Source: Hyphomicrobiaceae bacterium | GTDB taxonomy: Bacteria > Pseudomonadota > Alphaproteobacteria > Rhizobiales > Hyphomicrobiaceae | Assembly: GCA_021775735.1 (NCBI GenBank) | Contig: JAJFHG010000041.1 | Coordinates: forward strand, 62,001 to 126,000 | DNA: 64,000 nt | Direction of reading: 5' to 3' | Shown here: piece by piece, positions 31,256 to 39,926 of the stretch | How positions within the stretch are numbered: position 1 is the stretch's first letter | Layout: every line of letters starts with the position of its first letter | The notes under the pieces: generated by a model | Databases searched by the model: none | Seen by the model: the letters and a program-made list of their open reading frames with translations, nothing else | What the model was told of the DNA's origin: nothing | Made by a program: the position numbers and the translations under genes

Positions 31256-31885
31256 CTAGTGGCGTGTTGTTGGGGCCCGCAAACTGACATCGTCAAGCGG
31301 CGACATTGCAGCGGACGTTGCGAGCAGCTCTTGGTCAGAAATAACAGTCCGTGCTTGACCCTGAGCCGTTGACAACCATGCCGATTTCACTGGCCGCGCA
31401 CCATTCCAAAGATGTTCAAATGCAGACAGGGCGCTGGCATTGGTAAACGTGCAGTTGCTGCTATAACGCTCATAGGCATCACTTTGTGCAGGGTCACGAC
31501 GCATGCAATCGCCAATCCAAGATGACTGATTATCAAGCAGCAGGACTTCATGAGCATCGAGCAAGCGCTGATCTTGAACCTGGCGAACATTATTGAGGTC
31601 TGAAGGTTCCTTCTGGCGCTTTGACGCGGAGCCACGTGCACCAAGAGTTGCAAATACCGCATAAATTGAAATGCCAAGAGCTGCAAGGTCATCAGAAAGC
31701 TCTGCAACCGCACGGGCAACGGGACTATCTGGCGAGCGGGCAATAAGGCAATATGTGCGGGTCGCACCTTCCACGGCTGGCACTTTGCGGCGCGCTTCAA
31801 TATCTTGCGCAATAAATGCACGAAGGACAGATTGTTTGTCCTCTTTCTTAATCACATGCATTGCCGAAGTCGCCGTTTCACTCAT
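31256..31885 (-). CDS. Hypothetical protein
   Basis: I do not recognise this 209-residue soluble protein. It has AGAGGA about 8 bases before the ATG. A possible Rossmann-like alternation runs from about residue 42 (RTYCLIARSPDSP) to residue 85 (LGISIYAVFATLG), followed by a charged linker and LLDAHEVLLLDNQSSWIGDCMRRDP. That last phrase and the FTNASALSAFEHLWNGARPV segment resemble a phosphatidylserine synthase/phospholipase D-like substrate region only vaguely, so no function is claimed. Two cysteines (WIGDCM, SSNCTF) lie about 17 residues apart. It is 141 bp downstream of the 905-residue membrane protein on the same strand and may be co-transcribed with it; a terminator follows it. Confidence 0.7.
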   Translation of the reverse strand: MSETATSAMHVIKKEDKQSVLRAFIAQDIEARRKVPAVEGATRTYCLIARSPDSPVARAVAELSDDLAALGISIYAVFATLGARGSASKRQKEPSDLNNVRQVQDQRLLDAHEVLLLDNQSSWIGDCMRRDPAQSDAYERYSSNCTFTNASALSAFEHLWNGARPVKSAWLSTAQGQARTVISDQELLATSAAMSPLDDVSLRAPTTRH

Positions 31886-32026: not shown

Positions 32027-34744
32027 TTAAACATCTGTATGCGCTGCAAATCGGCTGGCGAGACGCGAAACCTCTTCTCCATCATGCAGCTCAACACCTT
32101 GTTCTCCCGCGTTATTTTTACCTTCATCAGACTGGTATGGGAGTGCAATTACCGGTGTTTCACTGACAACAGGAACTGACAATTCAGCGTCCGAATTTGC
32201 AGCGAATTGCGCATCATCTGTGCCGTTTAACTCTTCCTTCGCCGCTTGCAACGCCTTGCGCATCAAACCTGCAACACCCTTCGGCAATGTTGCTTCGGTG
32301 ACAGGCACAGAAAATGTTGCGGTATCTCTCGTCACAACCACATCAACCTGGCCTTCGGTTAACTCTGTGTTAACGGAAACTGGCGCGGTCAACGTTGCTT
32401 CTGTTGTTGGCATTGTTGCCAGAGACGTTGGCTCGTCCCGCCCTGCTGGTACAACATCTGAAACAGCTTCAAACCGGTTCGCTGACGGCACGTGGATTTC
32501 GGTCGCCGCGACTGCATCAGCCTCTTGTGTCAACACATACTTACGCGGTGCCACGTCATCCAATAATTCCTGGCTTGGCGGCGTCACCGTCACATCTGCT
32601 TCCGTTGCATCCGCGGGAAGGGTGTCATCAAATTCAGGAAACTCACTAACATCAGCATCGTTCACGTGCATGGCATAGGGACCAAATTTGGCTTCATGCT
32701 GTGCGGTGACGTCTGCCGTCGTTGGCCGCGTCTGCGTCTGCCAAGACGCGTTTACGCCCGGGCTCGGAGCCGTTGGCTGGGCAGCCGTATGAACCGGTGC
32801 ACGGTCGTCATCACGGTGGCGTTGGCGCGGTGCGCCGCTCACAAAATTATAGGCTGCGGTTTGAGTGGTATCGTATGGTGTCGAGGACAAGATATCCGCC
32901 GCCGGTGGTTCAGTGGCAGCAAACGGTGCAAAGCTATCGACACCCTTGCCGGATGAACTCGTTGCAAACAGGTCTTCTTCCAGCTGCTCACGACGACGCT
33001 TGGTCTCAGCGCGGCGCGCGGCCCCCATCACCGCGCCCAGAATAATGTCTGACCAGGCACCATCGCGGAACTTATAGACACGGAACGCCTCACAGCCTGC
33101 AAACTTGCTGCCCTGTCGGGCCAACCGTTTCTGGATAGCGCGCGTATTAAGCAGCAATGGATTATAAACACGTCTAAAGATGCGTTCTTTTTCAAAACTA
33201 GTGAACAGGTTAGCGAGCAAGTGGGCTTCATTCTGAAGCTCTTGGGCTTGTTCGGTGCCGTAGTTTTCACTCAGTGGCGCACGCGAATGACCACGGAACG
33301 GCGCATCGAGCGGTACTGCAACATAGTAATCGCCGTTTTGATCAAACACGACATGACGGAAGATTTCAAAGTTATCGCGCACTTGTGGATCGCGATGAAT
33401 ATCCTTAAAGCGCGACAGAATTTCAATCACCGGACCGCGTTCTGCAGCACGCATTTTCGGCACGAGATTTTCAATACGATTGGTAACCCGGCCCATTGAA
33501 ACCAGCAGCAGACAAAGATCCACAAACAGGGCTATGGAAAGCGGCACGTAGTCACGATTTGACAACCCCGCCGTTTCCATTTCGAGTTTTGCGCGGTCGG
33601 TTCTGCTCACAGCCTGGCGAATGGCTTTTTGCTGAAGTTCGCGTAATTCATCTGCCGAAGGTGGCAATTTAAACGTCAACGCACCCTGTATCGTCGCCGT
33701 CAAACGGCGAAAGGCCTCAATGGTTGCTTCCGAGCCTTCAACAACAGCGATCTTTGGCTTGTCGAGTGTCGGCAATTGATCCAGCGCACGCACTGCACCA
33801 CGCAATGCTTGCTGAAGTTGCGCGTCAGGACAGGAGAACGTTCGCCCACCGGCTAGTTTAAAGACGGTTTTGTCTGCACGCACCGCCAAATCCGCGCGCA
33901 ATTGCTGTAGCTGGGGATCGGTCCGAAAGGCGTTAAAACCAGTGACCGTAAGGTCAAGCTTGCGGCCAAGCGCGCGCATAAACTCATTTCGCGTGCCTGA
34001 CTTAGGATCGATAATCGATTGGTCCTTCTTGGCAATTTTCACGAGATCGCCATCGAGCGCTTTCATATCTCGTTTAATCGCACCAACACGACCTGCAACA
34101 AATTCAGATGAAAACGTAAATTTGGCCGCATCCTCAGCCCGCATCTTGCGTCTTGGGCCATCGCCTGGGCGGCTGTTTGGGCATGACGTGCCTTTGGTCC
34201 GCTCAAGTTCTGACTTCTTCTGAGAGACATCAGCCAACTGCGTCAGCGTTGCCTGCAATTGTTCAAGGCGCGTTGAAGCACCATTGAGAGAGCTTTGCAC
34301 TTGTCCGACAGCCGACTCAGCAGAACGCGAAGCTTCGGTCCGACTTTCCAAAACCTTCCAATAGAAGCCAAAGCCAAAACCAACCGAGATCAGCGTCAAA
34401 AATAGATAACCACCAACGTAGGCCAGTTTAATTGCGCCAGCATGCGGCTTGAACATCTGGTCGAGCAACCAGACGATCATCACCATCAACATGGCGACGG
34501 AAAATCCAATAACGACTTTGTGGGCGAAGGGAAGTGACCCTAGGTTGGCCTGGATCAGCTCCAGCATACCAATATAGGTCGCGACCCACGACAAAGCGCC
34601 GAGACCAACAACCAGAATATACTTTTTAATATCCCGTCCGGTCTGTGGATCTTGGTGCCAGTCATCATCCTCTGGCGCGAAATCGAGTTTCAGAGATCTC
34701 GGGTCAAATCGGTTTCGGTTACGCGGCTGCGACGCATACGCCAT
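32027..34744 (-). CDS. Large uncharacterised four-helix membrane protein
   Basis: I do not recognise this 905-residue protein. Three transmembrane helices lie at about residues 42-62, 75-95 and 105-128, followed by an extracytoplasmic-looking region (130-398) with coiled-coil potential (SSLNGASTRLEQLQATLTQL) and two cysteines, C188 and C305. A fourth helix spans 399-418. The long cytoplasmic tail contains a structured part to about residue 590 (VYNPLLLNTRAIQKRLARQG; DIILGAVMGAARRAETKRR) and then an acidic, Thr/Pro-rich disordered tail with many DxTE and VTV repeats. The layout recalls DUF4407-type proteins but I cannot confirm a match. It is followed by the 209-residue hypothetical gene and is divergent from ppk2. 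Confidence 0.8.
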   Translation of the reverse strand: MAYASQPRNRNRFDPRSLKLDFAPEDDDWHQDPQTGRDIKKYILVVGLGALSWVATYIGMLELIQANLGSLPFAHKVVIGFSVAMLMVMIVWLLDQMFKPHAGAIKLAYVGGYLFLTLISVGFGFGFYWKVLESRTEASRSAESAVGQVQSSLNGASTRLEQLQATLTQLADVSQKKSELERTKGTSCPNSRPGDGPRRKMRAEDAAKFTFSSEFVAGRVGAIKRDMKALDGDLVKIAKKDQSIIDPKSGTRNEFMRALGRKLDLTVTGFNAFRTDPQLQQLRADLAVRADKTVFKLAGGRTFSCPDAQLQQALRGAVRALDQLPTLDKPKIAVVEGSEATIEAFRRLTATIQGALTFKLPPSADELRELQQKAIRQAVSRTDRAKLEMETAGLSNRDYVPLSIALFVDLCLLLVSMGRVTNRIENLVPKMRAAERGPVIEILSRFKDIHRDPQVRDNFEIFRHVVFDQNGDYYVAVPLDAPFRGHSRAPLSENYGTEQAQELQNEAHLLANLFTSFEKERIFRRVYNPLLLNTRAIQKRLARQGSKFAGCEAFRVYKFRDGAWSDIILGAVMGAARRAETKRRREQLEEDLFATSSSGKGVDSFAPFAATEPPAADILSSTPYDTTQTAAYNFVSGAPRQRHRDDDRAPVHTAAQPTAPSPGVNASWQTQTRPTTADVTAQHEAKFGPYAMHVNDADVSEFPEFDDTLPADATEADVTVTPPSQELLDDVAPRKYVLTQEADAVAATEIHVPSANRFEAVSDVVPAGRDEPTSLATMPTTEATLTAPVSVNTELTEGQVDVVVTRDTATFSVPVTEATLPKGVAGLMRKALQAAKEELNGTDDAQFAANSDAELSVPVVSETPVIALPYQSDEGKNNAGEQGVELHDGEEVSRLASRFAAHTDV

Positions 34745-35169: not shown

Positions 35170-36063
35170 ATGGCCGACGATACCGAACGCGAAGCACAGC
35201 AAAAATCCAAAGACAAGAACACGTCTGATCCGCTCGCCAATTTCGACATTCATGAACCTAAATTACCCGATGTGATCAAAGACGCAGCCCTGAGCTCAGG
35301 TCGCTTTCCCTATAAAAAACGGATCAAAAAAAATCTCTATGAACAACGCTTGCTGGAGCTGCAACATGAACTTGTAAAGTTGCAAACAGACGTTCAGAAA
35401 ACAGGCAAACGAATTGTTGCCCTGTATGAGGGTCGCGACTCTGCGGGTAAGGGTGGCTGCATATCGCGCACATTGCGGTATATCAATCCGCGCCATGCGC
35501 GCTCTGTTGCGCTGTCCAAGCCGACCGAAACTGAACAAGGCCAATGGTATTTTCAACGATATGCCGCCCACCTGCCAACAGACGGCGATGTCGTGTTGTT
35601 CGATCGGTCTTGGTACAATCGCGCCGGTGTTGAGCGGGTGATGGGCTTTTGCACCGAAGCACAACTGGCCAACTTCCTGCGAGAGGTTGCAGATTATGAA
35701 GCGCTGTTGGTGCGCGATGGCATTCACTTCTTTAAATTTTACCTGACGATTGGTCGTGAAATGCAGCTAAAGCGGTTCCATGAGCGCCGTCACAACCCAC
35801 TGAAGCACTGGAAGCTCAGCCCCATCGACATCAAAGCGATGTCAAAATGGGATGACTATACTGAAGCTGAAAACGATATGTTCCGGTTCTCTCACACAGC
35901 AACCAGCCCGTGGACCATCATTCACGCTAATGACCAACGTCGTGCCCGATTGGAATCCATAAAATCAATTTTGTCAGCAATCGACTACGACGGCAAAGAC
36001 CCAGACGTTATTGGCGAAATTGACTCACAAATCGTCTCAAACGGGCCCCGGCAAGATAGCTGA
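35170..36063 (+). CDS. ppk2: Polyphosphate kinase 2 family protein
   Basis: A 297-residue PPK2, a P-loop kinase that moves phosphate between polyphosphate and nucleoside di- or triphosphates. Walker A is ALYEGRDSAGKGGCISR at residues 84-100. Walker B and lid region is VVLFDRSWYNRAGVERVMGF near residues 147-166, followed by FKFYLTIGREMQLKRFHERR. It is a single-domain PPK2 of class I-like layout with an N-terminal extension of about 60 residues. Nucleotide preference (ADP or GDP) cannot be read by eye. Cys follows the two glycines of the P-loop where Thr or Ala is more usual. The end overlaps the convergent channel gene by 27 bp. Confidence 0.92.
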   Translation: MADDTEREAQQKSKDKNTSDPLANFDIHEPKLPDVIKDAALSSGRFPYKKRIKKNLYEQRLLELQHELVKLQTDVQKTGKRIVALYEGRDSAGKGGCISRTLRYINPRHARSVALSKPTETEQGQWYFQRYAAHLPTDGDVVLFDRSWYNRAGVERVMGFCTEAQLANFLREVADYEALLVRDGIHFFKFYLTIGREMQLKRFHERRHNPLKHWKLSPIDIKAMSKWDDYTEAENDMFRFSHTATSPWTIIHANDQRRARLESIKSILSAIDYDGKDPDVIGEIDSQIVSNGPRQDS

Positions 36064-38295
36064 GGCCGTGCCATAGGGCCAGACCACACTCCAGATCCGT
36101 TGCAAGGTGATTGGGTTCGCTGCGGAAATCAGAATGTAAGCAATCATTCCCATCGCAAAAATGGGAACTAGATAGATCTGCACAAAATTTACAATCCTAA
36201 TGCCATTGGTTGAGCCAACAAGCGTCTGATTTACCTCCAACACGGAAAGCGTAATCATGACCGTGATTGAGGCGTAGGCCATGACAAAGATGATATCGGA
36301 CAACGTCGCTTTGTCTGATGCAGGCTGATTGAGCGCCAGATAAAGCGCAATCGCAGACAATAGCGCGGTCACCTGAATACCCATCACCGCTTCAAAACGT
36401 GCAGTTGGAATGAAATGCGCCACGTAGGCAACAATCATAATAAAGGCAAGGGGCACAATCACGCGCAGCAAATAATCAATCACGTGACGATGCATGACCC
36501 AAGTGTAGTTGAAATTATAATAGGGCAGAACCTTCTCGCCCCCCGCAGCGCTTTCAATTGAGCGAATGATCAACTCATTGGTGCCGACGTAGTGGGAATG
36601 CATTTTCCAACCATCGACCTGAAATGTGTCAGCTCGGATCTCATCAGCGGGCGGCTGAAGGAAAAAGGCGGCATCCATTGTTGCTGGCTGGAAGGAAATC
36701 GAGAATATCTGTTCATCAAATGGATATTTCCTGAGATCTGGATCAAAACGAAACCGACCCACGACCTTATAGATGCGTGAAACCAGATCATCGTCTCCCG
36801 AAGACGTCTCTTCATAGACACGCCGGACATTGATCATCGGTTGCGCAGAATCAGAACTCCACATCGCATTTGTAAATTCGATAGCGCTAATTGGAATCTG
36901 CTTATTAGCCCGCAGCGTGAAAAAGAACTCTGCATCAAAGCTACGGTCGTTGCTATCGACGTGGGAAATCGACACCATATCAAGATGCACATAAAGCACT
37001 GGCACCGCTTTCACAGCGTCGCCACGGCGCAGATACTGCTGGGGTGCTAAAATAGACTTGGCGCGGGCATCCGGCCGCCACACGAGCAATGAGTGTTCAC
37101 CCGAAGCCTGCGCATCCGTAAACGTCCAGTCTTGCGCCCAACCCCGCCACACCCGCCGTCCTTTGCGAAGCTTGGCAAGTTCATCGACTATGTAGTCTGC
37201 CATGCGTTCAGGGTTAGGAGATGGACTGTCTTCAGCAAGCTCTGCCAACATCGCAACCAGATCAGCATAGCGCGCGCCGTAGCCAACAGCGTATGGAGAA
37301 TAAGTGCGCACTGCAGGCATGCGATCCGGACTGCGCATCAATTGTTCCAAACGTTCGTTGTTGAGATTGGCAATGCCGCCTTCCGCGATTTCATAAAACG
37401 AACCAAGGTAGCGCTTGCCGCCACCTGTTGGATGCGACACAACTCCATTGATCGAACCAAGGGCAATAAATACTGGAATTTTAATGTCTGATTTTGCCAG
37501 CCTGTCCAACACCTGAGAACCGCGGCGCGACCCTACTGACAAAAACAAAATATCAGCGTTCTTGGTTTTAATCTCACCAATCATACGGTCTATTTCAGCT
37601 TCACTATCCTCGATTTCCCCTTCAATCCAAGATGCAGCCACCATCGGAACCTTGGCATCGGGTCTAGCTAAATGATCATGAAATGCCTTGGTATAGAGAT
37701 CATTCTTGAGGCCTATGAATGCCAAGCGTTGAAACTTGCCGCTCGCAAAGGACACAAACACATCTTCTTCATCGCTGACTGCGCGCGTGAGTGTGTAGAT
37801 GTTGCGATGCTTGGCAAACAAATTTTCAACCGACAATTCAGAGATCAACGCTTTACCAGATGCTCCCACGGTGTCCATCACCTCTGAGCCACGGGTTGAA
37901 TTCCAAATGCCAACCATGGCAAGCAATCGAGGATCTGTCAGCGCTTCATCAACGTTGGCAATTGTTTTTTTGACATCTGTTTTATCGTCAAAAAAACGAA
38001 TGTTGAGTTTGCGACCCTTGACTCCGCCTTGAGTATTGATCATCTCCGCCCGACGGCGAACAAAGTCTTGGATCGCAAAGACTTCCTCTGGTCCGTTTTC
38101 TTTCTTCGATGAACTGATGTGAACGGCGATTGTATACCCGGGCTCTGTCGCAGGCGCGTTTTCAGCCAACGCCGGCAGGCCCGCACCAACAAAACCCACA
38201 AACACCGCAAACAAAAACAGGCGGCACATTATGTCGTGCTTGCACGAACGAACAAGAAAGCGCGCAGGATCCATATTTAAGTCAGCAATCGTCAC
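36037..38295 (-). CDS. Periplasmic binding protein fused to a pentameric ligand-gated ion channel
   Basis: A 752-residue fusion. Residues 24-45 form a signal peptide (RLFLFAVFVGFVGAGLPALA). Residues 52-420 look like a LivJ-type type-1 periplasmic binding domain (YTIAVHISSSKKENG; MINTQGGVKGRKLNIRFFDD; MVGIWNSTRGSEVM; RLAFIGLKND). Residues 430-600 fit the pLGIC ligand domain, with the prokaryotic equivalent of the Cys-loop at FDPDLRKYPFDEQ (residues 517-529) and no disulfide cysteines. Helices M1 about 604-628 (with Pro615), M2 about 633-656, M3 664-688 and M4 699-725 follow. ELIC carries a matching FRLFPFDRQQF segment. GTG 38295 has GAGGG upstream; ATG 38229 at the signal peptide is possible. 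Likely a ligand-gated inner-membrane channel. Confidence 0.85.
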   Translation of the reverse strand: MTIADLNMDPARFLVRSCKHDIMCRLFLFAVFVGFVGAGLPALAENAPATEPGYTIAVHISSSKKENGPEEVFAIQDFVRRRAEMINTQGGVKGRKLNIRFFDDKTDVKKTIANVDEALTDPRLLAMVGIWNSTRGSEVMDTVGASGKALISELSVENLFAKHRNIYTLTRAVSDEEDVFVSFASGKFQRLAFIGLKNDLYTKAFHDHLARPDAKVPMVAASWIEGEIEDSEAEIDRMIGEIKTKNADILFLSVGSRRGSQVLDRLAKSDIKIPVFIALGSINGVVSHPTGGGKRYLGSFYEIAEGGIANLNNERLEQLMRSPDRMPAVRTYSPYAVGYGARYADLVAMLAELAEDSPSPNPERMADYIVDELAKLRKGRRVWRGWAQDWTFTDAQASGEHSLLVWRPDARAKSILAPQQYLRRGDAVKAVPVLYVHLDMVSISHVDSNDRSFDAEFFFTLRANKQIPISAIEFTNAMWSSDSAQPMINVRRVYEETSSGDDDLVSRIYKVVGRFRFDPDLRKYPFDEQIFSISFQPATMDAAFFLQPPADEIRADTFQVDGWKMHSHYVGTNELIIRSIESAAGGEKVLPYYNFNYTWVMHRHVIDYLLRVIVPLAFIMIVAYVAHFIPTARFEAVMGIQVTALLSAIALYLALNQPASDKATLSDIIFVMAYASITVMITLSVLEVNQTLVGSTNGIRIVNFVQIYLVPIFAMGMIAYILISAANPITLQRIWSVVWPYGTASAILPGPV

Positions 38296-38534: not shown

Positions 38535-39137
38535 ATGTCGAAACTGCTGTCCGGCCGTTGGCTTGCCATCCTCGTACTGACGGTTGCCGCCGTACTTGCT
38601 GCAACTTACATTGGCGACCAACGACTGCATCTTGCGACTGCTGCTTTATCAGCTTTGATCTTTGCGGTGATGGGACTGAGAGATAATGCGCAACTGACGG
38701 CGTCCGGCGCATCACAGCACGCAATCGGGGCATCATCAGCACAACACATGGGTTTGGTCTGGATATGGGGTGCTGCAATCCTTGGACTGTCCTACACACT
38801 GTTGCTGACACCCTGGCGGGAGTGGCTTCACTTCTTTGCCGCCTTTGCCGTTGTTGGGTTGCTGTGTCTGCTTTTTGCCTCAGCACTTGAGCGTGATGCC
38901 GCCAACAACAGTGACGACCAGACCATGCTCAAACTGGGTCGCCTACTGACCATTGGCCAAGTCCTTGGCATGCTTGCCATGCTGATTGGAATTTCAATTG
39001 ACCCGGACAAAAGTATTCTGACAAAAATACGACCTGATTGGGCAGCCAATATCGTGTTTGTGTTTGGTGGACTGGCTCTGCTTGCAATCAGCGCTCACGC
39101 CCTTTGGCAACAACGAGGCGTTGAGAAATCAGGTTAA
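38535..39137 (+). CDS. Uncharacterised membrane protein, paralogue A
   Basis: A 200-residue protein with about five transmembrane helices: residues 8-25, 33-47, 70-92, 96-114, 135-151 and 170-188 are candidates. ATG 38535 with GGGAGA about 6 bases upstream is used; a longer frame starts at 38469 without support. The segment MGLVWIWGAAILGLSYTLLL and the C-terminal IRPDWAANIVFVFGG are shared in pattern with the next gene, GLVYTWGAAAMFAVYSL and VKSDWAANEVFLWGG. The two genes are therefore tandem paralogues. The function is unknown. Confidence 0.8.
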   Translation: MSKLLSGRWLAILVLTVAAVLAATYIGDQRLHLATAALSALIFAVMGLRDNAQLTASGASQHAIGASSAQHMGLVWIWGAAILGLSYTLLLTPWREWLHFFAAFAVVGLLCLLFASALERDAANNSDDQTMLKLGRLLTIGQVLGMLAMLIGISIDPDKSILTKIRPDWAANIVFVFGGLALLAISAHALWQQRGVEKSG

Positions 39138-39311: not shown

Positions 39312-39926
39312 ATGTCACTCACGCCTCTCGTTCCATTTCTTGCGGTAGGGCTGATTTTGTCGGTCACCGGAATGGTGCATGGCGCCGGGCGCGGGGACGC
39401 ACAATTTACAGCACTTTGTGCGATCAGTTTTATTTCAATCGTTGTCGCAGCAGCACTTTTGATAAACGCAAATGCATGGCGCAAATCCAATGCTTCTGAA
39501 AAAGCGGCTGCAACTGCATCAGCGGTACGCCGTAACGCGCGCCTTGCTGGCCTGGTATACACATGGGGAGCCGCCGCCATGTTCGCCGTCTATTCCTTGT
39601 CTGACCTAAGTTGGCGTCATTCCTGGCAATACGGACTTGGTATGGCGATCATAGGCATTGGTATTTTTATCTTTGTCTATCGGCTTGGAAACGCACAACC
39701 GAGCCGATTGCCATCCCTCTCCCTGACTATTCTGCACGGCGTTGCAGCGATCGGAGGCCTGACATACCTCATTGGCGCTGGAAAATTGCAAACAGTGAAG
39801 TCAGATTGGGCCGCAAACGAGGTCTTTCTGTGGGGCGGCATTGGCATTGTTGTCCTATGCGTTTTATCTTTGATCACGCATCTGATGCACAATCGTTCAC
39901 GAACAGAAGCGGCAACGGCGTCTTAA
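39312..39926 (+). CDS. Uncharacterised membrane protein, paralogue B
   Basis: A 204-residue membrane protein with about six hydrophobic segments, including residues 5-23, 32-51, 79-95, 103-121, 135-150 and 170-190. It shares the WGAA and DWAAN...WGG blocks with the gene at 38535, so it is a diverged tandem copy. The ribosome site is weak (TTGGAA). Its stop overlaps the mutM stop by three bases on the opposite strand. The tandem repeats at 39171-39212 lie in its leader. No function can be given. Confidence 0.78.
   Translation: MSLTPLVPFLAVGLILSVTGMVHGAGRGDAQFTALCAISFISIVVAAALLINANAWRKSNASEKAAATASAVRRNARLAGLVYTWGAAAMFAVYSLSDLSWRHSWQYGLGMAIIGIGIFIFVYRLGNAQPSRLPSLSLTILHGVAAIGGLTYLIGAGKLQTVKSDWAANEVFLWGGIGIVVLCVLSLITHLMHNRSRTEAATAS

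Follow-up and report, generated by a model that had tools for sequence, protein, structure and literature searches.

Does solute binding to a clamshell domain open the pore of a pentameric ligand-gated ion channel (pLGIC)? The question is raised by a gene in a 64,000-bp stretch of DNA from a Hyphomicrobiaceae bacterium (assembly GCA_021775735.1, contig JAJFHG010000041.1, positions 62,001 to 126,000), the whole of which we analysed and call the window. On the minus strand, a single open frame at window positions 36037-38295 (752 codons and a stop) encodes a type-1 periplasmic binding protein domain (PBP) followed by the extracellular domain (ECD) and the transmembrane domain (TMD) of a pLGIC; the plus-strand frame across the same span is riddled with stops. 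A preliminary description of this DNA had given exactly this span for a 752-residue protein, silent on the minus strand, and had placed a binding domain ahead of a pLGIC core in one chain, an arrangement now backed by a Pfam match for the first half and by PDB sequence and profile matches for the second. Judged from its sequence, the protein has both domains in that order, an intact ECD-TMD coupling set (YPFDxQ and the pre-M1 arginine) and a pLGIC-like M2 helix, and nearly every strong relative has the fusion. Its gating, ligand and ion selectivity we infer: with a little more confidence than doubt, we favour an inner-membrane, probably homopentameric pLGIC-type cation channel that opens or is tuned when its clamshell PBP binds a ligand.

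A binding domain and a pLGIC core in one chain

In a Pfam scan the protein matched Peripla_BP_6 at residues 80-394 (E 4.6e-12, 46.7 bits, cut-off 31.7), the family that the preliminary description had named for this part, and no other family reached its cut-off. The same profile matches 14 of 15 subfamily members at E ≤ 1. Phmmer against PDB sequences aligned residues 82-366 with 4mlc and residues 67-272 with 2liv, both leucine-type binding proteins.

For the channel half, the best phmmer match was DES-2, an acetylcholine-receptor-type chain (residues 502-684, E 6.5e-6), followed by an ELIC-GLIC chimera (508-681, E 7.4e-5) and GLIC (499-681, E ~0.004, 18.9 bits); together the channel matches span residues 499-699. 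A profile of 14 channel-half sequences found 6v4a as its second-best PDB match (E 1.8e-7) as well as the ELIC-GLIC chimera and GLIC, over ECD and TMD, and aligned GLIC from an early ECD strand through M4. The entry 6v4a is described as DeCLIC (PMC9897478). TIGR00860 matches the channel half at E 3.8e-6, far below the family cut-off. No Neur_chan Pfam model matched the window protein at E ≤ 10, a range in which HMMER filters drop most matches above ~0.1, and neither Neur_chan_LBD nor Neur_chan_memb matched any of 15 subfamily members at E ≤ 1. This miss is probably a limit of these Pfam models, because a distant fusion (L091) and a stand-alone channel (L088) also score below the Neur_chan cut-off; a Neur_chan_memb search of the own genome gave no match and gave none in control genomes either, and is uninformative. 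The profile match anticipated for the channel half was thus absent for the Neur_chan models and present for PDB sequences and profiles and, below cut-off, for TIGR00860. By the homology of its ECD and TMD sequences, which make up a complete core, the protein belongs to the pLGIC or Pro-loop receptor superfamily.

Residue counts were made over 30 members, window protein included, and leave out L003 (same contig as L072), both L086 entries (a split copy), the partial L007 and stand-alone channels. Of the interface residues, P525, D527, Q529 and W563 (each 30/30) and R603 (29/29) are invariant. In M2, with primed numbering that we take to carry over from GLIC, T643 (6'), L646 (9') and A650 (13') occur in all 29 members that reach this helix, leucine at 16' in 27, and E635 (-2') in 27, the other two having D or N. 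By analogy with GLIC, the pore is predicted to conduct cations and to have a hydrophobic gate, the cation preference following from the ring of -2' Glu. In a 15-row alignment (one row without TMD), 19 of 28 invariant columns fall within the ECD. The invariant proline of the Pro-loop, a superfamily hallmark according to PMC4795631, is P525 here and is present in 30/30 members. Hydropathy marks four C-terminal hydrophobic regions, which are helices in low-confidence models, and TALLSAIALYLALNQ makes up residues 643-657, inside M2. The window protein has no cysteine beyond residue 46, and none of the 30 members has the cysteine pair at the Pro-loop that forms the disulfide of animal-type Cys-loop receptors. 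The YPFDEQ loop, the lack of disulfide cysteines and the M1-M4 layout with TALLSAIALYLALNQ in M2, as first read, are all borne out by the sequence.

The fusion among relatives

Three relatives in genome contigs are 54-75% identical to the window protein, one of them labelled Hyphomicrobium sp. Within the order, 52 of 199 genomes had any match at E ≤ 0.001; eleven frames besides the window's, a paralogue included, matched at E ≤ 1e-70, and matches in the other genomes were weaker and mostly covered one half. When the 60 nearest genomes were searched with the channel profile, 24 had a match (29 in total, 27 of them strong at E < 1e-60), and 26 of the 27 strong matches sit in frames of 625-997 aa. 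Close to the odd one (G606:C136, 346 aa) is a 342-aa frame that falls in the same cluster, and the pair resembles a split copy. Both weak matches come from stand-alone channels, and among the strong relatives in these genomes we saw no intact channel without a PBP. All 30 members have the PBP and then the ECD in one frame, some being truncated by contig ends (L087, for example, before the TMD). L001 and L087 are one sequence, and the genome it comes from shares the window's genus; the genome with L003 shares the family.

Further out, no match at E ≤ 1e-20 to the window protein (query P0001) was found in 384 other genomes of the class, where scoring took no more than two candidates per genome, and the channel profile found one further genome among the same 384 (G476), with a 754-aa frame that is a distant fusion. 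Counts across the class and the phylum are minimum values, as candidates were capped at two per genome (at five in the order-wide and the channel-profile class searches). A search of viral contigs found no relative of the fusion, and a plasmid search with P0001 found no PBP-pLGIC relative.

The paralogue (L034:8172-10481, G000:C35) is a 786-aa PBP-pLGIC frame, 34% identical, from a different contig of this genome; it may work as a receptor in its own right or assemble with the window protein as a subunit. Between the window gene and L001 the proportions of nonsynonymous (pN) and synonymous (pS) differences are 0.149 and 0.764 (saturated), omega for L002 versus L003 is 0.196, and selection on the fusion gene looks purifying from these comparisons. 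As a separate observation, locus L045:6430-8690 (G140), in the same order, holds two tandem stand-alone pLGIC genes, a possible heteromeric pair.

The binding domain and its ligand

A full-length AlphaFold model from a 4-row alignment (window protein and L001-L003) was good for the PBP alone, with a mean predicted local distance difference test (pLDDT) of 54.6 overall. Within the PBP, pLDDT by block was 56-91 over residues 51-300 and 60-90 over 331-370, and low at 301-330 and beyond 376. Foldseek with the PBP model gave 3hut, 1usg, 1z15 and 4q6w (LIVBP, LBP and kin) as best matches. For the channel half the models are poor, so we make no claim about the placement of the PBP relative to the ECD; of 1405 Foldseek matches to the poor channel model, the best 50 are all pLGICs, at TM ~0.2, which is weak support.

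The ligand had been guessed to be an amino acid or a carboxylate. We compared the members with LIVBP at Ser79, Thr102 and Asp121, which we take to be its contacts to the amino-acid ligand, in an alignment that is distant and built from sequence. The Ser79 equivalent is Ser in 24/30 members, but Thr102 is retained in 1/30 (Val in 22/30) and Asp121 in 0/30 (Gln in 17, Val in 10); conserved instead are R135 (27/29) and S155 (27/30). Because the LIVBP contacts are largely lost, the amino-acid part of the guess is weak, a lead and not proof given the distant alignment, and a small solute that is not an amino acid (a carboxylate, an amide or similar) seems more likely than a classical branched-chain amino acid.

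In the same region, a cysteine at window column 67 and a cysteine in an insertion after window residue 323 occur together in 23/30 members, and neither occurs in 6/30, the window protein among them; the single member with the insertion cysteine alone has a frame cut by a contig start. The paralogue L034 has the cysteine pair and the insertion that the window copy is without. A lost periplasmic disulfide would explain this nearly all-or-none pattern.

Distant fusions

PBP-pLGIC fusions far from the window subfamily were found at L091:3820-6180 and L092:4128-6389 and, elsewhere in the phylum, at L104:1399-3789, L106:1489-3642 and L107:253-2382. Their PBPs score 79-169 bits on Peripla_BP_6, as compared to 46.7 for the window protein, and hhalign gave a 287-column alignment (E 4.7e-28) of their ECD-TMD with that of the window subfamily. 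L091 and L092 are without the -2' Glu in the member alignment, where the alignment of M2 is uncertain, and their pores may differ in selectivity.

In larger trees the window subfamily is set apart with support 100/100 in both the channel and the PBP tree, and L091/L092 fall among other channels in the former and beside LIVBP in the latter (97/91); these trees carried long-branch warnings, the LIVBP fragment filled 44% of columns, and one was built without L087 and the other without L084. In reduced trees, one without LIVBP and the other without L032, near and far fusions fall on one side with support that is not strong (84/88 and 83/67). Two independent fusion events, hinted at by the larger trees, were not upheld after this reduction of rows, and we dropped the claim.

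Azospirillum proteins with an MscS pore

A tblastn search of plasmids with L091 aligned Azospirillum records over the PBP and the ECD, the alignment stopping ahead of the pLGIC membrane part. One of these proteins, AZL_RS21910 of Azospirillum sp. B510, is annotated as an ABC transporter (ATP-binding cassette) substrate-binding protein and has Peripla_BP_6 at residues 45-399 and MS_channel_2nd at 835-900 by Pfam; the A. brasilense Sp7 protein has the same domain order. Taken separately, the ECD of L091 matches the segment between PBP and MscS at 77 and 92 bits, and the TMD of L091 has no significant match. By hhalign this middle segment aligns with the far-fusion ECDs over 184 columns (E 1e-25) and more weakly with the window subfamily (probability 80%, E 1.3e-5, 104 columns). 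The Pro-loop has decayed to AYGTH, PPYGSQ or PPYGSH in the three aligned proteins (B510, A. brasilense Sp7 and A. oryzae). The B510 protein matches 385 plasmid records; nine cover at least 80% of it, all Azospirillum with B510 included, of which three were inspected, two by Pfam. We found no report of a PBP-ECD-MscS chimera in the open-licence literature.

The chimera is the part that specialists would not expect. The Pro-loop normally contacts the pLGIC pore, and the pLGIC sensor fold is five-fold, known MscS channels seven-fold. The presence of PBP-ECD on an MscS pore suggests that the pair is a portable, self-contained sensor, and we give an even chance to the view that a PBP with a Cys-loop-type ECD forms a movable periplasmic cassette for ligand sensing, which evolution has put on two unrelated pores, the pLGIC TMD and, in Azospirillum, MscS. 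On that view there would be natural MscS channels that are ligand-gated and carry Cys-loop-like ECDs, and a sensor of five-fold symmetry would have to drive a pore built seven-fold in the known MscS channels; the chimeras would also raise the matter of how a single sensor fold is coupled to unlike pores. In both plasmid contexts, secretion-type ABC and HlyD-family genes adjoin the chimera gene, downstream in B510 (L110:7018-9650, from the annotation) and upstream in A. brasilense (L111:599-3663, by eye).

Comparison with known receptors

The PBP-pLGIC architecture has been known since 2004, and the window protein is a further well-supported case of it. Fusions of a PBP-I with an acetylcholine-receptor-type ligand-gated ion channel (ART-LGIC) were reported in that year in Bradyrhizobium japonicum and Magnetospirillum magnetotacticum (Tasneem et al., PMC549065), and the architecture is mentioned again in a 2022 review (PMC9221113); the remark in the preliminary description that surveys had noted related fusions is confirmed by both. 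Like the window protein, the fusions of Tasneem et al. come from Alphaproteobacteria and have an N-terminal type-1 PBP, a pLGIC ECD and a four-TM domain in one chain, a likeness of the architecture as described. DeCLIC also has a large periplasmic N-terminal part, but its lobes are described as beta-rich jelly rolls and not as a PBP (PMC9897478); a 2025 paper calls it the only pLGIC with an N-terminal domain that is even partly characterised (PMC12664993). GLIC and ELIC share the ECD, the Pro-loop and the pre-M1 Arg with the window protein, and GLIC an acidic -2' position in M2, but they have no PBP and are distant kin, as the phmmer score to GLIC shows. LivJ/LIVBP and other type-1 solute-binding proteins share the fold and the Pfam family of the window PBP; LivJ/LIVBP have ABC-transporter partners, whereas the window PBP is fused to a channel and has the Thr102 and Asp121 contacts replaced.

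Possible working of the fusion

In the channel that we favour, one clamshell type-1 binding domain would be stacked on each periplasmic ECD. A periplasmic small molecule would close the binding domain, the rigid-body change would pass through the ECD by a twist and the Pro-loop/M2-M3 contact, and the cation pore with its ring of -2' Glu would open or be tuned, so that cation flux or depolarisation would be the signal. If a solute-bound clamshell does open a pLGIC pore, bacteria would have a counterpart to the layered build of the ionotropic and metabotropic glutamate receptors, in which a clamshell stands ahead of the channel or receptor; the likeness is one of analogy only, and the pore is not homologous. 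Several points weigh against this reading. The PBP might just concentrate ligand for an ECD site or just aid assembly, and the loss of LIVBP contacts could mean that ligand binding itself has been lost. Cation selectivity is argued from GLIC by way of a single ring of residues, and this position is D or N in 2/29 members. The AlphaFold model of the channel half, modelled alone, is poor (mean pLDDT 47.7).

The account proposed in print by Tasneem et al. 2004 (PMC549065), that the PBP captures and concentrates a ligand for the classical inter-subunit ECD site and that the ECD does the gating, is one we regard as possible and rather doubtful. The ECD is complete and highly conserved, and distant stand-alone superfamily channels occur in the same order, as this account would have it; but among the strong relatives we saw no intact PBP-less channel, the PBP-ECD pair also sits on a non-pLGIC pore, and the window protein is without the Trp of GLIC's LSLSWKD strand and without the WIP motif (alignment by eye). 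Unlikely, in our judgement, is a PBP that has lost ligand binding and now has a structural, assembly or protein-docking role, like the role suggested for flexible N-terminal domains of the DeCLIC sort; the DeCLIC domain is reported to affect gating kinetics and may meet periplasmic partners (PMC9897478, PMC12664993). The missing LIVBP amino-acid contacts agree with such a role, but columns beside those contacts are conserved (the Ser79 equivalent, S155 and R135, as counted above) and pN is far under pS in the PBP part (0.138 against 0.759, window versus L001).

A chemoreceptor that feeds flagellar chemotaxis by ion flux, along the lines of a published suggestion for bacterial ART-LGICs (PMC549065), is very improbable here. 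In a survey of 39 genomes, which took in 24 of the 28 carriers then known (without G579, G580, G594 and G603), 10 of the 24 carriers had at least one MCPsignal match, but 14 had none, and the domain was not clearly commoner than in same-family non-carriers (4/15, one below cut-off). The own genome (96.7% complete) has no match to MCPsignal, CheW or Flagellin_N, which match in 7, 7 and 4 of 14 control genomes, so that a chemotaxis role fits this host poorly. The standing guess is weak in a host without methyl-accepting chemotaxis protein (MCP), CheW or flagellin match, and the subfamily offers ~30 diverse sequences for a direct test, two of them in this one genome. That a sequencing or assembly error joined two genes, a possibility that the preliminary description had allowed for, is virtually excluded, because relatives from many assemblies and the paralogue in the own genome keep both domains in this order within a single frame, and pN is much lower than pS.

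Features and genomic neighbourhood

Feature coordinates are collected in Table 1. The window protein has a hydropathy peak of 2.28 over residues 26-44, followed by ALAE, which reads as a probable signal peptide.

Table 1. Parts of the fusion gene (window positions; residues of the 752-residue protein) and related Azospirillum proteins (locus positions).
Feature	Position	Strand	Basis or remark
Whole fusion gene	36037..38295	-	GTG start at 38295; the true start may be an ATG at residue 8 or 23; relatives share the gene
Probable signal peptide, residues 23-45 (MCRLFLFAVFVGFVGAGLPALAE)	38161..38229	-	Hydropathy and ALA-like cleavage motif by eye
Type-1 periplasmic binding domain, ~residues 54-410	37066..38136	-	Pfam 80-394; predicted fold; Foldseek
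pLGIC-type extracellular (ligand-binding) domain, ~residues 425-607	36475..37023	-	Profile alignment to GLIC from early strand; hhalign to other PBP-pLGIC fusions
Pro-loop YPFDEQ, residues 524-529	36709..36726	-	P525, F526, D527, Q529 in 30/30 members
M1, ~residues 608-630	36406..36474	-	Low-confidence model, hydropathy
M2 pore helix, residues 635-657	36325..36393	-	Alignment to GLIC, member conservation
M3, ~residues 665-692	36220..36303	-	Low-confidence model, hydropathy
M4, ~residues 697-726	36118..36207	-	Low-confidence model, hydropathy
PBP + pLGIC-type ECD + MscS protein, Azospirillum sp. B510 AZL_RS21910	L110:3953-7021		Pfam
PBP + ECD + MscS protein, A. brasilense Sp7	L111:3611-6931		Pfam
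PBP + pLGIC-type ECD + MscS-type relative	L112:3722-6925		Aligned; MscS shown by Pfam for the two rows above

Across 31 neighbourhoods of fusion genes, no neighbouring gene cluster occurs in more than 4; two of these neighbourhoods are on the same contig, several are short and cut by contig ends, and open reading frames were called crudely without a gene finder. With no recurring operon partner the fusion protein seems to act without a fixed partner, and a single protein may be a complete sensor-effector. Three more frames in the own genome match Peripla_BP_6; at 435-461 aa they are not long enough for PBP-pLGIC fusions. A PPK2 gene runs convergent to the fusion gene, which overlaps its 3' end by 27 bases. 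For two predicted proteins on the minus strand, of 905 aa (window 32027-34744) and 209 aa (31256-31885), Pfam gave no match at E ≤ 0.01. Two small membrane-protein genes (38535-39137 and 39312-39926) lie on the opposite (plus) strand, directly upstream of the fusion gene; their products have no Pfam match at E ≤ 0.01, share similar C-termini of the form xxDWAANxVFxxGG (by eye) and look like tandem paralogues.

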